From the NCBI GenBank assembly GCA_018713205.1, contig DVFN01000089.1, forward strand, positions 1-51,160: a stretch of DNA of 51,160 nt. The letters run 5' to 3'. The stretch's first letter is position 1. Every line of letters starts with the position of its first letter. Origin of the DNA: Candidatus Avoscillospira stercorigallinarum. Its GTDB lineage: Bacteria > Bacillota > Clostridia > Oscillospirales > Oscillospiraceae. The position numbers and the translations under genes were made by a program. Positions 35,013-46,868 of this stretch are shown here, piece after piece. The notes under the pieces are model-generated. The model was not told where the DNA came from and did not search any database. It worked only from the letters and a program-made list of their open reading frames with translations.

Positions 35013-35506
35013 TGAAGAAATGGATCGTAATTTCCGCGCTGCTGGCCCTGCTGCTGGCGGGCTGCGGCGGCAAAGCCGCGCCGGTGGACCCGGCGCTGAC
35101 CATTGACGGCGTGACCTTCACCCCCGAGAGCGCCGTGGCCGATGTGCTGGAGACCCTGGGCGAGGACTATGAATACTATGAGGCCATTTCCTGCGTCTAT
35201 GACGGCATGGACAAGACCTACAGCTACGGCGACGTGACCCTCTATACCTATCCCGACGGCGAAACCGACCGGCTGATGGAGCTCTACTGCACCGGCGGCA
35301 GCGTATCGGCGGGGGATGTGACAATCGGGTCCACCGCCGAGGACGTGAAGGCCGCCTTTGGCAGCGGCTATACCGAGGCCGGGTCGGTGCTGACCTACGC
35401 CCTGGAGCCGGAATCCGAGCAGAACACCCCGGCCTCCCTCTACTTTGAGCTGGAGGACGGCAAGGTCTGCGCCATAGCCATGACGGCGGAGCACCGGGCC
35501 GAATGA
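35012..35506 (+). CDS. Small lipoprotein of unknown function
   Basis: Lipobox LLLAGC; VADVLETLGEDYEYYEAISCVYDGMDKTYSYGDVTLYTYPDGETDRL; start overlaps the previous stop. Confidence 0.8.
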   Translation: MKKWIVISALLALLLAGCGGKAAPVDPALTIDGVTFTPESAVADVLETLGEDYEYYEAISCVYDGMDKTYSYGDVTLYTYPDGETDRLMELYCTGGSVSAGDVTIGSTAEDVKAAFGSGYTEAGSVLTYALEPESEQNTPASLYFELEDGKVCAIAMTAEHRAE

Positions 35507-36081
35507 GAAAACATCTGGTACTGACGGCGCTGGTGCTGGCGCTGCTGGCGGGCTGTGCCGCCGCCCCCTATGAACCGGCCGGAGCCCCCACCGGCGACGA
35601 GGTCCTGGACGGCCAGGTGCTGACGCTGCTCCAGGAGATCTGCGACCCCCGGGCCTCGGAGGAAGAGAATCTCCGGGCCGCCTACGACTGGGTCTGCAAT
35701 GAGATCACCTACCGGGCCGGGACTGCCGATACCACCGGCGGCTTTACCGAGGACCTGATTCAAGCGCTGGCCAGGGAGGCCCTGGAGAAGCGCAAGGGCA
35801 ACTGCGACAGCGAGGCCGCGCTGATGGCCGTGCTGCTCCAGCGGCTGGGCTGCCAGGCCCAGGTGGTCCAGGGCCAGTTCCTCCGGGAAGGGGACGACGA
35901 GGCCATCTGGGTGGACCACGCCTGGGTGGTGGCGGAAGTGGAGGGACAGTATTACCACTTCGACCCCCTCTATGGCCGCTATTACACCGAGGACCGGGCC
36001 GAGGACTACTTTATGCAGCCCGCTTCCGCCCTGGAACCCACCCATACCTGGGACCGGGAGACCGTCCCAGCCTGCCCCTAG
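35503..36081 (+). CDS. Transglutaminase-like lipoprotein
   Basis: Lipobox LLAGC; KGNCDSEAALMAVLLQRLG, DHAWVVAEV, FDPLYG triad pattern; start overlaps the previous stop. Confidence 0.85.
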   Translation: MRKHLVLTALVLALLAGCAAAPYEPAGAPTGDEVLDGQVLTLLQEICDPRASEEENLRAAYDWVCNEITYRAGTADTTGGFTEDLIQALAREALEKRKGNCDSEAALMAVLLQRLGCQAQVVQGQFLREGDDEAIWVDHAWVVAEVEGQYYHFDPLYGRYYTEDRAEDYFMQPASALEPTHTWDRETVPACP

Positions 36082-36083
36082 GG

Positions 36084-36362
36084 GCCCTATCTCCTCAAGG
36101 AGAGGCTTTGGGGCCCGGTGCCTGAGAGGGCAGGCTCCCCTTGAGGGGAGCTGTCAGCCGAAGGCTGACTGAGAGGTGTTACCGCACCAATGGCTTGCCG
36201 CAGGGTTTCGGCGTGTGCAGAAGGCGCTTGCGCGCCGCCGCCGCTATGCGGCGGCACACCTCTCCGTCACGGCTTCGCCGTGCCACCTCCCCTCAAGGGG
36301 AGGCTTTGGGGTGCGGCATGTGCAGAGGACACGCCTCTCCGTCACGCTGCGCGTGCCCCCCA
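36084..36362 (+). repeat. Family B structured repeat between transglutaminase lipoprotein and dltA
   Basis: CTCCCCTTGAGGGGAG, TCAGCCGAAGGCTGA, GGCGCTTGCGCGCC, GCCGCCGCTATGCGGCGGC, CACGGCTTCGCCGTG, CCTCCCCTCAAGGGGAGG in order. Confidence 0.85.
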
Positions 36363-36454
36363 GATTGCCGCTTGCCTTTCCGGCCCGCGCTGTAGTCTGC
36401 CAAGGCAAATGGCTGCCCAACCGCTGCTCAATCCAACTGCAAGGGAGAACCCCC

Positions 36455-37969
36455 ATGTTTATTCTGGAACAACTCCGCCACTATGCATCCACCGGCCGCG
36501 TGGCCTTCCGCTACGGGGCCGAAACCGTGACCTATGCCCAGCTGGACGCCCGGTCCGACGCCTTTGCGGCCTGGCTGCTGGAGACCCTGGGCGACGACCG
36601 GACGCCGGTGGTCCTCTACGGCCACAAGGAGCTGAGCCTCCCGGCCTGTATGTTCGGCTGCATCAAGGCCGGCCGGGCCTATGTGCCCGTGGACACCACC
36701 TTCCCCGCCGACCGGGTGGCCCGGATTCTCGAACAGGTCCAGCCGAAGGTGCTGGTGGATCTGCGGGGGCTGGGCCTTGCCGCCCCCGTGGCGCTGGACG
36801 GCGCGGCCTTGGACGCCATTCTCCGGCGGCCCGCCGCGCCCACCCCCGAGACCTGGGTGAAGCCCGGGGACGTGGTCTATATGCTCTTCACCTCCGGCTC
36901 CACCGGCCAGCCCAAGGGCGTGCAGATCACGGCCGGGAACATCGCGGCCTTCCGGGAGGGGGTCGCGCCCCTGCTGGATTTGGACTTGGACGGCGGCGTC
37001 TTCCTCAATGAAATCTCCTATTCCTTCGACGTGTCGGTCTGCGCCCTCTACTACGCCTTGAGCCGGGGCATGACCCTCTACACCGTGGACAAGGACACCC
37101 TCAACCAGCCCAAGGCCCTCTTTGCGGCCCTGGCCGAGTCGGGCGTGGACCTGTGGGTCTCCACGCCGTCCCTCGGCGAAATCTGCTGCCAGTCGCCCAA
37201 GTTCGACCAAGCCCTGCTGCCCAAGGCCCGGAAGTTTATCTTCTGCGGCGAAGTGATGACGAAGAAGCTGGGCCTGCAAATGCTGGACCGCTTCCCCGGC
37301 GCGAAGATCTACAACGCCTACGGCCCCACCGAGACCACGGTGCTGGTGACGGCGGCGGAGATCACCCGGGAGCTCTGCGACCGGGGGCCGTCCCTGCCCA
37401 TCGGCTACGGCTTTTCCAATCTGGAGTGCCGGATTCAGGACCCGGAGACCGGCGCGATCCTCCCCGACGGCCAGGCCGGGGAGCTGGTGATTCTCGGCGA
37501 CTGCGTCAGCCCCGGCTACTTCCGGCGGCCGGACCTGACGGAAAAGTCCTTCTTCACCGAGGGGACCCGCCGGGGCTACCGCACCGGCGACCTCTGCGCC
37601 AGCCATCACGGCTCCATCGACTACTTCGGCCGCCTGGACGGGCAGGTGAAGCTCAACGGCTTCCGGGTGGAGCTGGAGGACGTGGAGGAAAATCTCCTGA
37701 AGGTCCCCAACATCGCCCGGGCCGCGGTGTTGCCGGAGACCCGGGACGGCACGGTCCAGTCTCTGACGGCCTTTGTGCTGCTGGAGGCCCCCGACGGCCT
37801 CTCCAGCCTCCAGCGGGCCCGGCAGATCAAGACCGCCCTGGGGCAGCTGCTGCCCAGCTACATGGTGCCCCGGAAGATCGTGGCCGTGGACCGCTTCCCC
37901 CTGAATACCAACGGCAAGATCGATAAAAAGGCATTGGCCGCCGGGCTCGGGGAGGGCGCGACGCCATGA
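36455..37969 (+). CDS. dltA: D-alanine--D-alanyl carrier protein ligase DltA
   Basis: AMP-binding motif FTSGSTGQPKGV, YNAYGPTETTV; followed by dltB, dltC, dltD; ATG after AAGGGAG. Confidence 0.93.
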   Translation: MFILEQLRHYASTGRVAFRYGAETVTYAQLDARSDAFAAWLLETLGDDRTPVVLYGHKELSLPACMFGCIKAGRAYVPVDTTFPADRVARILEQVQPKVLVDLRGLGLAAPVALDGAALDAILRRPAAPTPETWVKPGDVVYMLFTSGSTGQPKGVQITAGNIAAFREGVAPLLDLDLDGGVFLNEISYSFDVSVCALYYALSRGMTLYTVDKDTLNQPKALFAALAESGVDLWVSTPSLGEICCQSPKFDQALLPKARKFIFCGEVMTKKLGLQMLDRFPGAKIYNAYGPTETTVLVTAAEITRELCDRGPSLPIGYGFSNLECRIQDPETGAILPDGQAGELVILGDCVSPGYFRRPDLTEKSFFTEGTRRGYRTGDLCASHHGSIDYFGRLDGQVKLNGFRVELEDVEENLLKVPNIARAAVLPETRDGTVQSLTAFVLLEAPDGLSSLQRARQIKTALGQLLPSYMVPRKIVAVDRFPLNTNGKIDKKALAAGLGEGATP

Positions 37970-39105
37970 CGCCCTACGGAGGACTGACTTTTTTCGTCGT
38001 GCTGGCGGCGCTGCTGCTGCCGGCGGTGATTCTGGGGCTCCTGGGCCGGCGGATTCACTACTACGGCCTCTTTGCCACGCTGGCGCTGCTGTGGCTGAGC
38101 TTTGACAGCTGGGAGAGCAAGGCGCTGCTGGCGGGCTTCTGGCTCTGGGAGACCGCTCTCTGCTATGGGCTGCTGCGGCTCCGGGCCAAAGGGCCCAGCC
38201 GGGGGCTCTTCTGGACGGCGGTGGTGCTGGTCATCGCCCCGATGGTGGTCTCCAAGGTCTCGGGCCTGCTGCCGGGCTTCTCCTTCTCCCTGCTGGGCAT
38301 CAGCTATATGACCTTCCGCGCCCTGGATGTGGCGCTGGATATCTGCGACGGCCGGGTGAAGACCCTCTCCCTCTGGGAGACGGCCTACTATATCCTCTTT
38401 GCCCCGGCCATCTCCTCGGGCCCCCTGGACCGCTACCGCCGGTTCACCGCCGATCTCCACCGGGCCATCCCCCGGGAGGAGTATCTCACCCTGGTCCGGG
38501 ACGGCGTCTGGCGGCTGATGACCGGCGCGCTCTACTACTTCGTCTTCGGCAGCCTGATCTGGAAGCTCTGGATCGAGGCGCTGCCCGACGGCGGCTTCCT
38601 GGGCTGGGCCGGGTATTTCTACGGCTATACCTTCTTTATGTTCTTCAACTTCGCCGGCTACAGCCGCATGGCCGTGGGCACGGCGTATCTCCTGGGGATT
38701 CGGCTGCCGGACAACTTCAACCGGCCCTTCCTGGCCGTGGATATGAAGGATTTCTGGGCCCGGTGGCATATCTCCCTCTCCACCTTCCTGCGGGACCAGG
38801 TCTATACCCGGTTCTGCATGGCGGCGCTGCGGGGCAAGTGGTTCAAGGGCAAGCGCACCAGCTCCTACCTGGGCTACCTGCTGACCATGGGCCTGATGGG
38901 CCTGTGGCACGGGCTCAGCCTCCACTACCTGGTCTACGGCCTCTACCACGGCGGCGTCATGGGTCTCAACGACCTGCTGGACACCCGGTGGAAGCACTTT
39001 AAGAAACTGAAAAAGCAGCCCTGGTCCCGGGCGGTCTGCGTGGTGGTCACCTTCCACCTCTTCGCCTTCGGCCTGCTGCTGTTCTCGGGAAAATTACTTG
39101 GATAG
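37966..39105 (+). CDS. dltB: MBOAT D-alanyl transfer protein DltB
   Basis: 379 aa MBOAT; FFNFAGYSRMAVGTAYLLGI, FWARWHISLSTFLRD, GLMGLWHGLSLHYLVYGLYHG; overlaps the dltA stop. Confidence 0.95.
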   Translation: MTPYGGLTFFVVLAALLLPAVILGLLGRRIHYYGLFATLALLWLSFDSWESKALLAGFWLWETALCYGLLRLRAKGPSRGLFWTAVVLVIAPMVVSKVSGLLPGFSFSLLGISYMTFRALDVALDICDGRVKTLSLWETAYYILFAPAISSGPLDRYRRFTADLHRAIPREEYLTLVRDGVWRLMTGALYYFVFGSLIWKLWIEALPDGGFLGWAGYFYGYTFFMFFNFAGYSRMAVGTAYLLGIRLPDNFNRPFLAVDMKDFWARWHISLSTFLRDQVYTRFCMAALRGKWFKGKRTSSYLGYLLTMGLMGLWHGLSLHYLVYGLYHGGVMGLNDLLDTRWKHFKKLKKQPWSRAVCVVVTFHLFAFGLLLFSGKLLG

Positions 39106-39111
39106 GATGGG

Positions 39112-39351
39112 ATGACCATGGAAGAACAAATCATTGCCATGCTGGGCGACATCTGCGGCGCGGACCCCGGCGAGATTCAGCCGGACACGGCCCTCTTTGA
39201 CGAGGGAATTCTCGACTCCTTCGGCCTGGTGCAGCTGATCGTGGCCCTGGAGGAGGCCTTCGGCGTCGCCCTGGACCCGGCGGAGCTGGAGCGGGCCCAG
39301 ATGGCCACGCCGGACGCCATCGCCGCCACGGTCCGGGCGGCCCAGGGATGA
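39112..39351 (+). CDS. dltC: D-alanyl carrier protein DltC
   Basis: 79 aa; phosphopantetheine site FDEGILDSFGLVQL. Confidence 0.95.
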   Translation: MTMEEQIIAMLGDICGADPGEIQPDTALFDEGILDSFGLVQLIVALEEAFGVALDPAELERAQMATPDAIAATVRAAQG

Positions 39352-40532
39352 GGCGGGCGCTGCTGGCGGCCCTGGCCACGGTGCTGGTCTGCGCGCTGGC
39401 CTTGGCCGCGGTGCGCTGGGGCCTGGAGGCCGCCATGCCGGACTACCCGGCAGCCCTCTCGGCCGAGGCTGCCGAGGAGAAGATCACCGGCATGTGGCTG
39501 ACGGAGCAGGCGGCGGAGCGGGACAACAGCCTCTTGATTTTCGGCTCCAGCGAGCTGAAAACCACCGATATCTGCACCCACCCGGCCAACTTCTTCGCGG
39601 ATACGGGCCTCCAGGTGGATCTGATCGGCCGGGGCTCCTGCCAGTCTATCATCCATGCCATGGCCATCGGCGCCCAGGGTGAGGCGCTGCGGGGGCGGCA
39701 GATCGTGCTGATTACCGCGCCCCAGTCCTACGTCCCCGAGGGCATCGCCAGCGACCTCTTTATGGCCAACTATTCCCAGCAGCAGCTCCTGGACATCCTG
39801 GGCGACGAGACCATTCCCGATGACATCAAGACGTATCTCTCCGCCCGGACTCAGGATCTCTTCGACGCCTACGAGGCCGATACCGGCCTGACCCCCGAGG
39901 CCTACACCGCCGGAGATCTTTTAAGCACGGCCTGGGCCGAGGACGGAGCCGCGGCGTTGCTGGCGCCCTACGGCGCGGCGGCGGAGTGGCTGCTGGACAC
40001 CCGGGATCTGGCCGAAGCCAAGGACCTGGCCGAGGACTTTCCCGATGAAGCCCCGGCGGCCCTGAACCTGGCGTTCGACTGGGACGCCGAGCTGGAAGCG
40101 GCCCTGGACCAGGCGGCGGAGATGGTCACCAACAACGATTTCTATATGCAGGACAGCTACTACGCCACGTATATCGGCGCGAAGCTGGACCAGCAGGCCG
40201 GGAAGGACGCCGCCCTCTCCTACGAGACCTCGCCGGAGTACGACGACCTGCGGTGCCTGCTGGACCTGTGCAGCCTGTGGGATCTGGAGGTCCTCTTCGT
40301 CCACGTGCCCATGCACGGGGCCTGGAACGACTTCACCGGCTTCGACGCCGGACGCCGGGCCGCCTACTACCAGGCGGTGCGGGAGATTGCGGAAGACTAC
40401 GACAATGTGACGCTGCTGGATTTGACGGGCTATGAGTACGAGCCCTATTTCCTCTGCGACACCATGCATCTCGGCTGGAAGGGGTGGCTGGCAGTTGACC
40501 GGGCCATTGTGGAATTTTATCACGCAGCTTGA
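39348..40532 (+). CDS. dltD: DltD (SGNH-like D-alanyl transferase)
   Basis: IFGSSELKTTDICTHPANFF and C-terminal DTMHLGWKGWLAVD. Confidence 0.93.
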   Translation: MRRALLAALATVLVCALALAAVRWGLEAAMPDYPAALSAEAAEEKITGMWLTEQAAERDNSLLIFGSSELKTTDICTHPANFFADTGLQVDLIGRGSCQSIIHAMAIGAQGEALRGRQIVLITAPQSYVPEGIASDLFMANYSQQQLLDILGDETIPDDIKTYLSARTQDLFDAYEADTGLTPEAYTAGDLLSTAWAEDGAAALLAPYGAAAEWLLDTRDLAEAKDLAEDFPDEAPAALNLAFDWDAELEAALDQAAEMVTNNDFYMQDSYYATYIGAKLDQQAGKDAALSYETSPEYDDLRCLLDLCSLWDLEVLFVHVPMHGAWNDFTGFDAGRRAAYYQAVREIAEDYDNVTLLDLTGYEYEPYFLCDTMHLGWKGWLAVDRAIVEFYHAA

Positions 40533-40656
40533 AACCTGGGTCCGCACCCATTGGGCGCCCCGGGCAGTGTTTTATGCTTTGATCGTCGCGGCCCTCTACC
40601 TGACCTGGGTCTATACCGGCGGGGAGAGCGTGGCCTTTGTCTACAGCGAATTTTAA
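40495..40656 (+). CDS. dltX: DltX-like small membrane protein with C-terminal FVYSEF
   Basis: TTG start candidates at 40495 (AAGGGG RBS, about 10 nt spacing) or 40507; ~50 aa; one TM (AVFYALIVAALYLTWVY) and C-terminal FVYSEF like the DltX FIYNEF tail; overlaps the dltD 3' end. Confidence 0.75.
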   Translation: MTGPLWNFITQLETWVRTHWAPRAVFYALIVAALYLTWVYTGGESVAFVYSEF

Positions 40657-40669
40657 CGGGAGGTTCCCT

Positions 40670-41023
40670 ATGAAGAAAACCATGATTCTGGCCGGCGCTC
40701 TGGCTCTGGCCCTCTTGGCCGGCTGCTCCGCCGGCGTCATCTCCAGCGAGGACGGTCCCACCCAGGTGGTGGGCGTCACCACCACGGCGGATATGACCCC
40801 CGCGGAACAGGTGGAGCTGGTGAAGACCCTGATCGACGCGCCGGTGGAGGAGCTCTACGAGGCCATCGGCCAGCCTGCAGATTCCGCCTATGCCTCCTCC
40901 TGCCTGGGCGAGGGCGAGGACGGCGAGCTCTACTATGAGGGCTTCACCGTCTACACCTACCGCGACACCGACGGCAGCGAGAGCGTCTATGACGTGATGG
41001 AGGCTCCCTCCACGGAGGGCTGA
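40670..41023 (+). CDS. Small lipoprotein, paralogue of the C-terminal domain of the 34410 product
   Basis: Lipobox LLAGC; LYEAIGQPADSAYASSCLGEGEDGELYYEGFTVYTY. Confidence 0.82.
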   Translation: MKKTMILAGALALALLAGCSAGVISSEDGPTQVVGVTTTADMTPAEQVELVKTLIDAPVEELYEAIGQPADSAYASSCLGEGEDGELYYEGFTVYTYRDTDGSESVYDVMEAPSTEG

Positions 41024-41025
41024 CC

Positions 41026-42243
41026 ATGCGCCGCCTGTTGCTGTCGGCCGCTGCCTTGGCGGCCCTGGTCTGCCTGCTGATTCTGCCCGCCGGTGCGGCG
41101 GACACCGGGGTGGAGCCCCTGCTGCGGCAGGTGTCGCTGACCCATGTCTTTGGCTCGGAGACCTTCACCCTGGACGAGGTGGAGTTCCAGCGGATCATCG
41201 TCCCGGCCTACGTGCTGGAAGTCTACGACACCGACGACTACGCCATCCACCCCGGCGAGCGGGACGAGAAGGTCCGGGAGCTGAAGCGCTACCTCTATTC
41301 CAACGAAAATTTCCCCACCAACGAGTTTGTCACCTATTCCCAGGCCGACATCAAGCGGGATATGGTAGCCGACTACTTCGACGACCACCTGGCCCTGCTG
41401 ATCGAGGTCCTCTACCAGTTCTGCGGCCTGGAGGACCGGGAGCCCTGCATCGACCCGCTGACCGTCTACCTCTTCCACCAGCTGGAGGATCTGGACAAGG
41501 ATATGCGCAACGACATCGAGGTGGTCTATAAGTACCGCATGATCCAGGAGGACACCGTCGGCACCATCAGCCGCTCCGGCGAGCCCGACGGCATGTACTA
41601 CTACGCCCAGACCGACCCGGACTGGGCAGACAAGGAATTTGCCTTCGAGGGCAACGGCGCCACCCTTCGGGACCGGGGCTGCGGCACGGCCTGCATGTCC
41701 ATGGTCTTCTCCACCTACCACATGGTGGAGATCAACCCCTATTGGGCGGCAGATTACGCCCAGGACGGCAACTGGCAGGTGAGCTACGGCCTGCCCAATG
41801 AGTTTTTCCTGGGCATTGCGGAAAAGTATGCCCATCTGGAGACAAAACGCTACGGAACGGTCCTAAACCAGCCGCAGATTATCAAAAAGGCCGACGTGGA
41901 CATGGACACGCTGGCTGACCAGATTGAGAACCAGGGCTATATGGCCATCATCCACGTGGTAGCCGGCGCCTTCACCAGCCAGGAGCACTATATGGTTCTG
42001 GCCGACTACGAGGTCATTGACGGCGTGGGCTATTTCCTGGTGGCGGACCCGTATATCATGCCGGAGCGGTACTCCAGCCGGGACCAGCTGAAGGACGTCC
42101 CCGGCGACAACGAGGGCCTGATCTACGCCACCTCCAGCCTTCTCTACCGGGACATGAAGTCCATCATCCTCTTTGCCCAGGACCGGGAGGCCTTCCCGCT
42201 GGGCTGTAAGTCCGCTGCCCCGGTGCGCATCGATCACGACTAG
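41026..42243 (+). CDS. Secreted C39-like (papain-fold) peptidase domain protein
   Basis: Signal peptide; GCGTACMSMVFSTYH, EHYMVLADYEVIDG, FLVADPY pattern. Confidence 0.75.
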   Translation: MRRLLLSAAALAALVCLLILPAGAADTGVEPLLRQVSLTHVFGSETFTLDEVEFQRIIVPAYVLEVYDTDDYAIHPGERDEKVRELKRYLYSNENFPTNEFVTYSQADIKRDMVADYFDDHLALLIEVLYQFCGLEDREPCIDPLTVYLFHQLEDLDKDMRNDIEVVYKYRMIQEDTVGTISRSGEPDGMYYYAQTDPDWADKEFAFEGNGATLRDRGCGTACMSMVFSTYHMVEINPYWAADYAQDGNWQVSYGLPNEFFLGIAEKYAHLETKRYGTVLNQPQIIKKADVDMDTLADQIENQGYMAIIHVVAGAFTSQEHYMVLADYEVIDGVGYFLVADPYIMPERYSSRDQLKDVPGDNEGLIYATSSLLYRDMKSIILFAQDREAFPLGCKSAAPVRIDHD

Positions 42244-42254
42244 GAGAGTGAGCC

Positions 42255-42959
42255 ATGGCGGATCATAAACATTGGAAGCGAACCCTCAAGCGCAATACGC
42301 TGAATATTCTCCTGGTGGTGCTGGTCCTGGCGCTGCTGGCCGGCGTGGCGGCGGCGGTCTGGACCATTCTGCCCCTGTTCCAGAGGAACCACACCGAGCA
42401 GCCGCCCCAGGAGGAGGCCGAGCCAACCCTGGAGGAGCTGCTGCGGCCCGATGAGACGATCCCGGACCCGGAGGACGCCGAGCCGGGCGAGCTGCCGGTC
42501 ACCGGCGAACAGACCAAGCCCCAGGCCCCGCGCCATACCTTCGGCGGCGTGGCAGTCTACTATGAGGACGGGGCCCTGACCGATACCATTTCCCAGACCC
42601 ACGGCATTGCCCTGACCCTCCCCGGGGGCGAGGCCCTGCCGCGAATCGATCTCCAGGGTATCTCCGGCAGCTGGGGCAGCCTCTCGGATTCCGAGCGGGA
42701 GACCTTGGCTGTTGGCGTGGTCCAGAGCTACTATGTGGACGGCCCGGCCGCCGAGCAGGTGGAGGTAACGGCCGACAGCGCCGTGGAACGGGGCTATCTC
42801 GTGACGGTGCCGGAGACGGAAGACGCTCCGGCGGTGACGGCCCGGGTGAAATTCCTCCAGGTGGGACAGACCCTGTGGATTGTCTCTCTGCTGGAGACCA
42901 CCGAGGCGGCGGGAAACGAGCTGCTGCAATCGGTCTATGAGACGGCGGAGGCGGCATAA
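42255..42959 (+). CDS. Membrane-anchored extracellular protein of unknown function
   Basis: N-terminal TM (NILLVVLVLALLAGVAAAVWTIL), acidic linker; start close behind the upstream stop. Confidence 0.75.
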   Translation: MADHKHWKRTLKRNTLNILLVVLVLALLAGVAAAVWTILPLFQRNHTEQPPQEEAEPTLEELLRPDETIPDPEDAEPGELPVTGEQTKPQAPRHTFGGVAVYYEDGALTDTISQTHGIALTLPGGEALPRIDLQGISGSWGSLSDSERETLAVGVVQSYYVDGPAAEQVEVTADSAVERGYLVTVPETEDAPAVTARVKFLQVGQTLWIVSLLETTEAAGNELLQSVYETAEAA

Positions 42960-43757
42960 ATGAAGAGATTACAACCCATAGGCGCGCTGCTGGCGCTGCT
43001 GCTGTTCCTGACCGGCTGTGCGGCGGAGCCCGTTCCCACGGAGGCGCAGCAGCAGCCGCCGGTCACCGCGCCCGCGGAGACGCCGGAGCCGGTGGAGGAA
43101 CCGCCTGCGGAGCCGGACGAGGAACCGGAGAGTATGGAGCCGGAAATCGTGGAGCCGGAGCCGGAACCGCTGGAGCCGGGCTTTCACGAGGAGGCGGGCG
43201 GCCTCTACTATGTCCAGGAGGACGGAACGCTGCTGACCGACGGCAGCCTGGGTTACCTGGACTTTGACAGCGAGGGCCGCTATACCACCGGCAATGCCGA
43301 CCTGGACGCCGGAATTCAGGCCCTGCTGGCGGCGGCGTGCCCCGACCCGACGGCGGACCGGGAGACCCGGCTGCGGGAGGCCTATGTCTACATCCGGGAG
43401 AATTTCCGCTATCTCAGCATGCCCCACTACGAGGCCGGCTCCACCGACTGGGCGGAGACTGCCGCCACGGCCATGCTGGACCAGGGCAAGGGCAACTGCT
43501 ATTGCTTTACGGCCCTGTTCACCTACTGCGCCCGCCAGCTGGGCTACCAGGCCTATAACGTGGCCGGGCACGAATACAGCCCCGATAACGACCATGCCTG
43601 GACCATGATCGACTGGCCCGACGGCGAGACCTATCTCTTCGACGTCCAGCTGGAGTACGCCTATCTCTACCAATACGAAAACAAGCCCGTCATCGACATG
43701 TTCAAAGCCTCCGGCAGCGACGGAATCTACAACGGGTTTGTGTACTATTTCCCGTAG
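42960..43757 (+). CDS. Transglutaminase-like lipoprotein with Pro/Glu-rich linker
   Basis: Lipobox LTGC; GKGNCYCFTALFTYCARQLGY, DHAWTMIDW, LFDVQLEY; similar to the 32875 product. Confidence 0.85.
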   Translation: MKRLQPIGALLALLLFLTGCAAEPVPTEAQQQPPVTAPAETPEPVEEPPAEPDEEPESMEPEIVEPEPEPLEPGFHEEAGGLYYVQEDGTLLTDGSLGYLDFDSEGRYTTGNADLDAGIQALLAAACPDPTADRETRLREAYVYIRENFRYLSMPHYEAGSTDWAETAATAMLDQGKGNCYCFTALFTYCARQLGYQAYNVAGHEYSPDNDHAWTMIDWPDGETYLFDVQLEYAYLYQYENKPVIDMFKASGSDGIYNGFVYYFP

Positions 43758-43833
43758 ATGGATATACAGAGACGAAACTGAGAGCGGTTGCCGCGCCGAA
43801 GGTTCGCTACAGATCTCCAACGGGTGCAAGGGC

Positions 43834-44098
43834 GCGTCGCCTGAGAGGGAAGGCTCCCCTTGAGGGGAGCTGTCAGCCGAAGGCTGACTGAGAGGTGTTA
43901 CCGCACCGAAGGTTTGCTGCAGGGTTTCGGCCTGTGCAGAGGGCGCTTGCGCGCCGCCGCCCTTACGGGCGGCACACCTCTCCGTCACGCCCTTTGGGCG
44001 CACCACCTCTCCTCAAGGAGAGGCTTTGGGGTGCATCGCCTGAGAGGTGTTGCCGCACCGATGGCTTCCCGCAGAGTTTCGGCGTATGCAGAAGGTGC
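43834..44098 (+). repeat. Family B structured repeat between transglutaminase lipoprotein and second MBOAT gene
   Basis: Same ordered hairpins as 36084-36362, with different but still complementary stems (GCCGCCCTTACGGGCGGC; CGCCCTTTGGGCG; CTCTCCTCAAGGAGAG). Confidence 0.85.
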
Positions 44099-44152
44099 GC
44101 CCCATGAATCTCCTCTATCAAGCATTCCCAATCCACGAAAGGAGCTTTGCCC

Positions 44153-45535
44153 GTGAGCTTTGGTTCCGCGATCTTTCTCTTCGGCTTCCTGCCTCTGACG
44201 GCGGCGTTGTACCGGCTGCTGCCCTGGCGCTGGGCCCGCCGCGTCCTGGTGACGGGGGCCAGCCTCTTTTTTTACGCCTGCGGGCGGCTGTGGGATCTGC
44301 CGGTGCTGCTGCTCTCGGCGCTGCTCCACTACGCCGCCGGACGGCTGCTGCTGAGAACCCAGTCTCGCCGGGCCGTGGTGGCCGCCGTGGTGGTCCTGGA
44401 CCTGGGTCTGCTGGCCGCGTGCAAGTACCTGGATTTCTTCTGCGCTGCCGCCGGGCTGCCCGTCGGACCCCTGAATCTGCCCCTGCCTCTGGGCGTGTCC
44501 TTCTTCACCTTCCAGGGGATCAGCTACGTGGTGGACGGCAGCCGGGACCGGTCCCAGCTGAGCCGCACGTTTTTCCCGGTGCTGCAATACCTCTGCTTTT
44601 TCCCCAATCTGGTCTCCGGACCTCTGGCGCGATTTCAGGCCGTCCGGCCCCAGCTGGAGGCCGCCGTCCGGCCCGATGGGGAGACGGCCGCACTGGCGCT
44701 CCGGCGCTTCACGGTGGGCCTGGGCAAAAAGCTGCTGCTGGCCGGGACGCTGGCTCCGGCGGTGGACGCCGTCTTCGCCCTGGACGCCGCCGCCCTCGAT
44801 CTGCGCACCGCCTGGCTGGGGGCCGTGGCCTATGCCCTTCAGCTCTATTTTGATTTCAGCGGCTACAGCGATATGGCCCTGGGCCTGGGCTGCCTCTTCG
44901 GCGTGACGCTGCCGGAGAATTTCCGCTATCCCTACCGGGCCGGGTCCATCACCGACTTCTGGCGGCGGTGGCATATCTCCCTGTCCCAGTGGTTCCGGGA
45001 CTACCTGTACATCCCCCTGGGCGGCAGCCGCCGGGGCAAGGCCCGGGCTGTGGTCAATAAGCTGGCCGTCTTCCTCGCCACCGGCCTCTGGCATGGGGCC
45101 AATTGGACCTTTGTCCTCTGGGGCGCGTGGCACGGCCTCTTCGCCGCCCTGGAGACCGCCACGCCCCTGGGCCGCATCGGCAAACGGCGGTTCGGCCACG
45201 TCTATGCGCCGCTGGTGGTCCTGGTGGGCTTTACCATGTTCCGGGCCGATACCGTGACGGCTGGGCTGGCGGTGGTTTCCAACCTGTTCACAGGCTTCGC
45301 CTTCCAGGAGGCTTCGACGCTGGCCTTGGCCCACTGTCTGACGGCCCGGGTCTGGACGGCGCTGATCCTCGGCGCGTTGGGCGCGCTGGGGTTCGGCTCC
45401 TGGCTCTGGCGCAAGGTCTCGGCCCGGCGCGGGGCTCTGGCGTGCAGCCTGGGCCTGACGCTGGTCCTGCTGGTCCTCTGTGTGCTGGCCCTGGCGTCCG
45501 GTTCCTTCCAGCCCTTTATCTATCAGCAGTTCTAG
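44153..45535 (+). CDS. AlgI/PatA-like MBOAT O-acyltransferase with C-terminal FIYQQF
   Basis: FGVTLPENFRYPYRAGSITDFWRRWHISLSQWFRDYLYIPLGG, GLWHGANWTFVLWGAWHG; GTG start 8 nt after GAAAGGAG. Confidence 0.93.
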   Translation: MSFGSAIFLFGFLPLTAALYRLLPWRWARRVLVTGASLFFYACGRLWDLPVLLLSALLHYAAGRLLLRTQSRRAVVAAVVVLDLGLLAACKYLDFFCAAAGLPVGPLNLPLPLGVSFFTFQGISYVVDGSRDRSQLSRTFFPVLQYLCFFPNLVSGPLARFQAVRPQLEAAVRPDGETAALALRRFTVGLGKKLLLAGTLAPAVDAVFALDAAALDLRTAWLGAVAYALQLYFDFSGYSDMALGLGCLFGVTLPENFRYPYRAGSITDFWRRWHISLSQWFRDYLYIPLGGSRRGKARAVVNKLAVFLATGLWHGANWTFVLWGAWHGLFAALETATPLGRIGKRRFGHVYAPLVVLVGFTMFRADTVTAGLAVVSNLFTGFAFQEASTLALAHCLTARVWTALILGALGALGFGSWLWRKVSARRGALACSLGLTLVLLVLCVLALASGSFQPFIYQQF

Positions 45536-45545
45536 GAGGCAGGCT

Positions 45546-46868
45546 ATGAAGCATCTCACCCGCATCTTTTTCTGGCTCTTCTTGGGCCTCTGCGCCCTGC
45601 CTCTGGCCGCGCTGCTGGTCCTGGGCCCGGCGGAGGCCGCCTCCAACCAGGTGCTGGCTTCGGCCCCCAGCCTCACCAACCGGGACGGCAGTTTCAACGA
45701 CGGCGTTCTCACCGACCTGTCGGACTACCTCTCCGACCGCTTCGGCTTCCGGCAGGAGCTGATTACCCTCCAGGCCCGGCTGACTGCCGCGCTCTTTCAC
45801 GAATCCGCCGCGGACTCGGTGCTCCTGGGATCCGAGGGCTGGCTCTACTACGCCGACACCCTGCCGGATTACGAGGGGACCAACGCCCTGACCGACCGGC
45901 AGCTCTGGGCTGCGGCCCGGACGCTGCGGCTGATCCAGGACGCCGCCCAGGCCCAGGGGGCCCAATTTCTCTTTACCGTGGCCCCCAATAAGAACAGCCT
46001 CTATCCGGACGCCATGCCGGACCGCTATCCCCGGTCCGACACGCCGGGCAATTGGCAGCGGCTCCAGGTTCAGCTGGAGGCCCAGGGCGTGGCCTATGTG
46101 GACCTGACCGAGACGCTGACCCGGGAGGAGCCGGTCTACTACCGCACCGACAGCCATTGGAACGACTACGGCGCGGCCTTGGCCCACGACGCAATCCTGG
46201 AGGCCCTGGGTGAGAACGGTACTGCGGCCCAAGCGCCCTTCACCACTGGCACCCACCTGGGAGACCTCTATGCCATGCTGTATCCCACGGGGACCGAGAC
46301 CGAAGCCTGCCCCGTGCTGGACCGGGACCGAACCTTCACCTATACGGCCCCCTTCCGCTCTCCCGAGGACATGACCATCCGCACCGAGAGCGCCGGCGCG
46401 CTCGGGAGCCTTCTCATGTACCGGGACTCCTTCGGCAATAATCTCTATGCGCCCCTGGCGGAGTCGTTCTCGAAGGCCTGCTTCTCCCGGTCCATGCCCC
46501 TCCAGCTGGAGCTGATGGAGGAGACGCAGCCGGATCTGGTGCTCTTTGAGCTGGTGGAGCGAAATCTCAGCTGGCTGTGCACCCAGCCGCCGGTGCTGGC
46601 GGCCCTGCCCTGTGAGCCGGTGGAGGCCGAGACGACCGGGGCGTCCGTGGCCCTGACCATCCGGGAGGCTAACGGCCTGACCTGCTACAGCGGCAGCCTG
46701 GAGGCCCTGGACTGGGATTCGCCGGTCTATCTGTCGCTGGACGGCACATATTACGAGGCCACCCCTGCCGGAACCGGGGACAATCCCTTTACCCTCTATG
46801 GGCCCCGGGCCGATGTGGTGCGCGTCTACTATCGCAGCGGCGGCCGGTGGCTGGAAGCCGAGACATAA
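45546..46868 (+). CDS. AlgJ/AlgX-like (DHHW/SGNH) putative O-acetyltransferase partner
   Basis: N-terminal signal anchor; YYRTDSHWNDYGAALAHD and YRDSFGNNLYAPLAE motifs. Confidence 0.88.
   Translation: MKHLTRIFFWLFLGLCALPLAALLVLGPAEAASNQVLASAPSLTNRDGSFNDGVLTDLSDYLSDRFGFRQELITLQARLTAALFHESAADSVLLGSEGWLYYADTLPDYEGTNALTDRQLWAAARTLRLIQDAAQAQGAQFLFTVAPNKNSLYPDAMPDRYPRSDTPGNWQRLQVQLEAQGVAYVDLTETLTREEPVYYRTDSHWNDYGAALAHDAILEALGENGTAAQAPFTTGTHLGDLYAMLYPTGTETEACPVLDRDRTFTYTAPFRSPEDMTIRTESAGALGSLLMYRDSFGNNLYAPLAESFSKACFSRSMPLQLELMEETQPDLVLFELVERNLSWLCTQPPVLAALPCEPVEAETTGASVALTIREANGLTCYSGSLEALDWDSPVYLSLDGTYYEATPAGTGDNPFTLYGPRADVVRVYYRSGGRWLEAET

Follow-up and report, generated by a model that had tools for sequence, protein, structure and literature searches.

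A covalent acyl-tyrosine has been described in two types of pathway that pair an MBOAT protein with an SGNH protein. In the Dlt pathway, earlier work cited by Anderson et al. (2025, PMC12148441) placed D-alanine (D-Ala) on the tyrosine of the microprotein DltX. In C. jejuni PatA, an acetyl group was located on the tyrosine of a C-terminal motif, and the acetyl-tyrosine peptide served as donor for PatB (Anderson et al., 2025, PMC12148441). The same authors extended the acyl-tyrosine model to MBOAT/SGNH pairs in general, and the MBOAT/SGNH pathways other than Dlt are described there as having neither a carrier protein nor a DltX-like microprotein (PMC12148441). Here we analyze a stretch of 51,160 nucleotides from the Oscillospiraceae bacterium Candidatus Avoscillospira stercorigallinarum (contig DVFN01000089.1, assembly GCA_018713205.1), called the window throughout this paper, which contains a dlt operon and a second MBOAT-SGNH gene pair. 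An earlier note on this DNA had claimed that each MBOAT module has one F-x-Y-x-x-F tail, free-standing in dlt and fused in the other, and had referred to the proposal that the tyrosine of DltX is a covalent acyl carrier between the MBOAT and the SGNH protein. The reading frames agree with the former and the published work (PMC12148441) bears out the latter, so that the tail observation is real, but the acyl-tyrosine shuttle mechanism is already published.

Compared with the DltX-DltB-DltD system, the window holds all of its parts, namely the ligase, the carrier protein, the MBOAT, the SGNH protein and an F-x-Y-x-x-F microprotein, but in the order dltABCDX, the usual one among the related genomes studied here, instead of the described dltXABCD (PMC5541007). 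The second pair shares with the PatA/PatB system of peptidoglycan O-acetylation and the AlgI/AlgJ system of alginate O-acetylation a catalytic-histidine MBOAT with a fused C-terminal F-x-Y-x-x-F and an SGNH partner with D-x-H-W and RDSF, but it belongs to a Bacillota genome, and the solved structures nearest to its SGNH protein are AlgJ and Bacillus cereus PatB1. With PatA1/PatB1 of B. cereus, which acts on the secondary cell wall polysaccharide, it has in common that it is a Bacillota MBOAT-SGNH pair (PatB1 match 1e-5). Gene content, tail identity, invariance of the tyrosine and of the catalytic motifs, conserved SGNH pairing and MBOAT fold were all observed, and in both modules a C-terminal tyrosine very probably serves to move the acyl group across the membrane. 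The published mechanism would thus occur twice within a single locus of this gut lineage of the Oscillospiraceae.

The second MBOAT (44153..45535, forward strand) is of the AlgI/PatA type (PF03062, 1.5e-33), and its frame ends in SGSFQPFIYQQF with the stop at 45535. The C-terminal shuttle hexapeptide F-I-Y-Q-Q-F with the stop codon occupies 45515..45535 (+), as supported by the reading frame, the genome pattern search, orthologues and IMG/VR homologues, and the earlier note had read this tail correctly. Residue numbers (His316, Tyr459) count from TTG 44147; GTG 44153, the start given in that note, is the better one because most orthologue matches begin at a query residue of at least 3. His316, Phe457, Tyr459 and Phe462 are invariant in 22 diverse homologues. 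The AlphaFold2 (AF2) model is confident, with a predicted local distance difference test score (pLDDT) of 89.3 and a predicted template modelling score of 0.90, and its nearest solved fold is DltB. The protein had been called unrelated-looking, which does not hold, as it matches the DltB model with 164 bits and DltB structures with E 1e-28. It contains extra helices absent from DltB (462 vs. 379 amino acids), the last of which ends at residue 450 and is followed by the tail. The next gene (45546..46868, +) encodes an AlgJ/PatB1-like SGNH acyltransferase of the ALGX family with an N-terminal membrane anchor (PF16822, 1.8e-25; motifs DSHWNDYGA and RDSFGN). Among solved structures, AlgJ (4o8v, 1e-7) and PatB1 (5v8d, 1e-5) are nearest, and its D-x-H-W aligns with AlgJ and PatB1, and its RDSF with PatB1, at catalytic positions.

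Conservation of the tail was followed in orthologues of the second MBOAT with 44-64% identity, one from each of 29 other genomes of the family (n = 30 including the window). All 30 end exactly in F-x-Y-x-x-F with Phe at -6, Tyr at -4 and Phe at -1 invariant, and positions -8, -3 and most of those upstream are variable; loss of the terminal tyrosine among Oscillospiraceae orthologues, named in the earlier note as the finding that would speak against its proposal, was seen in none. The exact tail is also present in 40/40 full-length homologues among 43 related MBOAT loci from IMG/VR contigs. An AlgJ-like SGNH gene on the same strand lies next 3' of the MBOAT in 28 of the 30 orthologue loci, and no SGNH partner gene was found in the other two. 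RDSF is present in all 28 of these neighbors, and a DSHW-type motif was detected in most of them.

In the Dlt module, the free-standing tail FVYSEF belongs to the dltX microprotein (40495..40656, +), the frame of which ends in GGESVAFVYSEF with the stop at 40656 and the tail tyrosine codon at 40642-40644. The assignment to DltX (PF12459) is a narrow pass of the Pfam gathering score (26.0 bits against a cut-off of 25; 25.1 bits in the genome search). The protein has a single membrane helix and a C-terminal F-x-Y-x-x-F, in which Phe48, Tyr50 and Phe53 are invariant in the alignment, and the claim that the small open reading frame (ORF) after dltD carries the DltX tail holds. The gene lies inside the operon downstream of dltD, not upstream of dltA, and a dltX with the F-x-Y-x-x-F tail stands directly 3' of dltD in 20/20 dlt loci from the order and the family that reach past dltD; its position in the operon is a habit and no functional criterion. 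The start at TTG 40495 is preceded by AAGGGG and implies an overlap with the 3' end of dltD. This overlap and the TTG start (window 39348-40656) make it likely that gene callers miss dltX. The adjoining genes, all on the forward strand, are dltA for the D-alanine-carrier ligase (36461..37969; NF003417, 478.7 bits, cut-off 476), dltB (37966..39105; TIGR04091, 408.6 bits, cut-off 375; 379 amino acids), dltC for the D-alanyl carrier protein (39112..39351; PP-binding domain, 9e-14; NF003464, 67.3 bits, just below the cut-off of 68), and dltD for the SGNH D-alanyl transferase (39348..40532; PF04914, 7.6e-80; TIGR04092, 268 bits). The open frame of dltA extends back to 36176, into a repeat, and the family match begins at residue 96 of this long frame. 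DltB ends in LLLFSGKLLG and is a tail-less MBOAT, as the earlier note had stated.

Based on these data and the published systems, the following scheme can be proposed. DltA would load D-Ala on DltC, DltB would move it from DltC to the tyrosine of the DltX tail, the putative D-Ala carrier here, and DltX would pass it to the serine of DltD, which would esterify a teichoic-acid-like polymer. In the other module, His316 would acylate Tyr459 at the outer face, probably with acetyl taken from acetyl-CoA, and the tail would swing to the adjacent AlgJ-like SGNH protein, the serine of which would accept the acyl group for transfer to an envelope polysaccharide. Each tail is preceded by a hydrophobic helix whose N-terminal side carries basic residues, and should therefore lie outside. 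The proposal in the earlier note that the second MBOAT is its own shuttle and hands the acyl group to its AlgJ-like neighbor finds good support in homology and family membership, the 30/30 tails and the 28/28 SGNH neighbors found. Several points weigh against this scheme: the tail of the second MBOAT was modeled at low confidence (pLDDT ~54, AF2), the covalent acyl-tyrosine of the window proteins is inferred from the published DltX and PatA work, and acetyl-CoA is assumed as donor of the second module, for which a fused tail is no proof, since the same genome also encodes a fused-tail MBOAT that is fed by a carrier.

Another role of the tail would be that of a structural or docking element for the SGNH partner, with the SGNH serine receiving the acyl group straight from the tunnel of the MBOAT. 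Two of the three invariant tail residues are phenylalanines, which are suited to docking, and the role of DltX and DltD has been called still unclear, with a regulatory role suggested (PMC11035591). However, the tyrosine is invariant together with the phenylalanines, and PatA carries acetyl-tyrosine, a Tyr-to-Phe exchange abolishes the labeling, and PatB uses the acetyl-tyrosine peptide (PMC12148441), which makes a tail for docking alone improbable. Just as improbable is a second module fed by an acyl carrier, e.g., the neighboring DltC, instead of acyl-CoA, with both modules transferring D-Ala. It would agree with the joint conservation of dlt and the second pair as one locus and with the carrier-fed fused-tail MBOATs of this genome and its relatives, but relatives of the second MBOAT reside mostly in genomes without DltD (a match in 219 of 251 genomes vs. 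a DltD match in 8 of 251), and no carrier gene directly adjoins the second MBOAT. A tyrosine shuttle in both modules, with a probable acyl-CoA donor for the second, is preferred here.

The DNA pattern for F-x-Y-x-x-F followed by a stop has 10 matches in the own genome, as against 11 for the control, so that the pattern search alone is uninformative and gene context is needed; seven of the 10 matches are the exact C-termini of DltX and six MBOATs. Among 2,074 distinct ORFs of at least 150 amino acids from the fetched loci, 158 end in F-x-Y-x-x-F, and these comprise 155 MBOATs by regular expression, two more that are evidently MBOATs and one short unassigned frame. In this set, the tail is nearly absent from genes other than those for MBOATs. 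Chance convergence of the two tails on a short aromatic C-terminus, with which the pattern counts would agree, is hardly conceivable and was rejected given this restriction and the exact C-terminal position of the tail over wide sequence divergence.

The own genome encodes eight MBOATs, six of them with a fused tail (FIYQQF in the window, and FLYYRF, FLYFRF, FMYFQF, FIYFNF and FIYGQF) and two without, namely DltB and the MBOAT of contig C81. Judged by sequence, each of the eight is thus provided with a tyrosine tail, fused in six cases and free-standing in two. A survey of 59 genomes of the order yielded 123 MBOATs, 122 of them complete, and 116 after removal of five DltB and one of the C81 type. 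The exact F-x-Y-x-x-F end is found in 99 of the 116, and 15 more retain Tyr at -4 and end in Phe or Tyr, which gives Tyr at -4 in 114/116. One of the two exceptions has the tail FMYGFSF with Tyr at -5; the other, on contig C5 of genome G031, is a divergent paralog in which the tail and the catalytic-histidine motif are both lost and which scores below the family cut-off, and it was rejected as a genuine tail-less exception. SGNH neighbors were recovered for 62 of the 123 MBOATs by a local profile search with few queries. SGNH partners are too diverse for few queries, and pairing is therefore claimed for the orthologues of the second MBOAT only.

Two further types of module extend this picture. 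The C81 type, a non-Dlt module with one or two ligases, is named after a contig of the own genome (L017:3192-9450), on which a pair of AMP-ligase genes is followed in this order by genes for a GNAT-like frame, a carrier protein, an MBOAT, an SGNH protein and a microprotein. The MBOAT there (382 amino acids) is tail-less, and the microprotein (46 amino acids) ends in GNGEFIYEL. This type occurs in 15 genomes (the own genome, ten GTDB-genome loci and four more in the class; locus L059 is apparently the same record as genome G146), and the microprotein follows the SGNH gene in 12 of them, including locus L061 with a rearranged operon (SGNH, microprotein, carrier, MBOAT). Locus L056 is truncated where its contig stops and does not count among the evaluable ones. 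Genomes G710 and G678 (L311 and L312) were considered as lacking the microprotein, which was rejected because it was found on another contig, apart from its MBOAT, directly upstream of a gene for a large FG-GAP-like protein that is its companion elsewhere too. The microprotein is present in 14/14 evaluable genomes, from Oscillospiraceae to Planococcus, including Planococcus chinensis. It ends in FIYE[AG]F, FIYEL or FIYEGV, FIYE being invariant in nine aligned sequences, and the shortened FIYEL end, seen in the own genome and in Ca. Avoscillospira, overlaps with the beginning of the following gene. It fails the DltX Pfam cut-off (14.5 bits vs. 25), and homology with DltX was not demonstrable by profile comparison (E 0.021, probability 2%), so that it may be described as a protein that would work like DltX but not as a member of its family. 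These shuttle microproteins, of 35-60 residues, score below the DltX profile and would therefore be missed by automatic annotation. The C81-type SGNH protein has no Pfam match; its invariant Ser66, Asp271 and His274, together with a model (pLDDT 84.4) that matches GDSL esterases, DltD and PatB, place it in the SGNH fold. At L055:482-2635, the C81-type MBOAT and SGNH protein share one open frame of 717 amino acids, which is either a natural fusion or an assembly artifact.

In the C34 type, present in 10 of the 59 surveyed genomes (the own genome and nine others), a carrier protein with the serine motif DSL, DSI, NSI or NSL directly precedes a fused-tail MBOAT, and an AMP-ligase is usually located upstream. 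The module on contig C34 of the own genome (L018:3180-9111) encodes a ligase, a GNAT-like protein, the carrier protein, the MBOAT with the fused tail FIYGQF, and a 615-amino-acid protein in which an SGNH-like domain is fused to a polysaccharide deacetylase domain. Several genomes have a GDS-type SGNH-like protein 3' of the MBOAT, and no SGNH gene was found beside the module in G007, G032 and G051. Five operons (L192, L193, L195, L197, and L199) contain a decarboxylase-like protein of 386-400 amino acids between ligase and carrier, the L195 copy of which matches the Orn/DAP/Arg decarboxylase family; this gene suggests an unusual acyl group derived from an amino acid. The partner of one C34-type MBOAT (L191:6464-7534) has GDC instead of GDS, possibly with cysteine replacing the SGNH serine.

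In a quick maximum-likelihood tree (unrooted, with tail columns kept and with long branches), DltB and the C81 type group together with an SH-aLRT support of 99, and the carrier-fed fused-tail MBOATs are placed elsewhere, their own grouping being weak (51). This suggests that the free-standing tail arrangement may have arisen once. In terms of gene content, the published rule on non-Dlt pathways (PMC12148441) is contradicted by both the C34 and the C81 type, and the failure, at this level, of the view that only Dlt combines a carrier with a shuttle microprotein matters more than the result in the window itself. Neither type was found described in the open-access literature, and the survey of MBOAT tails in the primary DltX paper (Schultz 2023), which was outside that search, may record part of this variety. 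Shuttle tails are likely to be more varied than published. The C81 type (free microprotein) and the C34 type (fused tail, carrier-fed) would represent uncharacterized systems that attach groups delivered on a carrier, perhaps aminoacyl groups, to surface polymers. Where the tail sits goes with MBOAT ancestry in this sample, not with the kind of donor.

The dlt operon is rare in the family, with DltD over the cut-off in 7/251 genomes. In five of these seven (the own genome, G323, G381, G369, and G427) it forms one conserved locus with the second MBOAT-SGNH pair in the order dltABCDX, lipoprotein, C39 peptidase-like protein, anchored protein, transglutaminase-like protein, MBOAT and SGNH protein (window 35503-46868; see also L243-L247), so that dlt and the second acylation pair have stayed neighbors. 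G324 has retained the dlt block, with its MBOAT-SGNH pair encoded at a distance of a few kb on the opposite strand, and G252 has dlt alone. Where the pair occurs without dlt, the lipoprotein- and transglutaminase-like genes are still often found 3' of it. From this linkage, we infer that both modules may act on one polymer. In the window, the four genes between the modules, for the lipoprotein, the C39-peptidase-like protein, the membrane-anchored protein and the transglutaminase-like protein, occupy 40649..43757 (+), and their order is kept in related dlt loci. The block from dlt to the MBOAT is flanked by two intergenic repeats, one of 132 bp in two copies at 92% identity (36111-36242 and 43830-43961) and one of 40 bp in three copies (36090-36129, 36288-36327, and 44008-44047).

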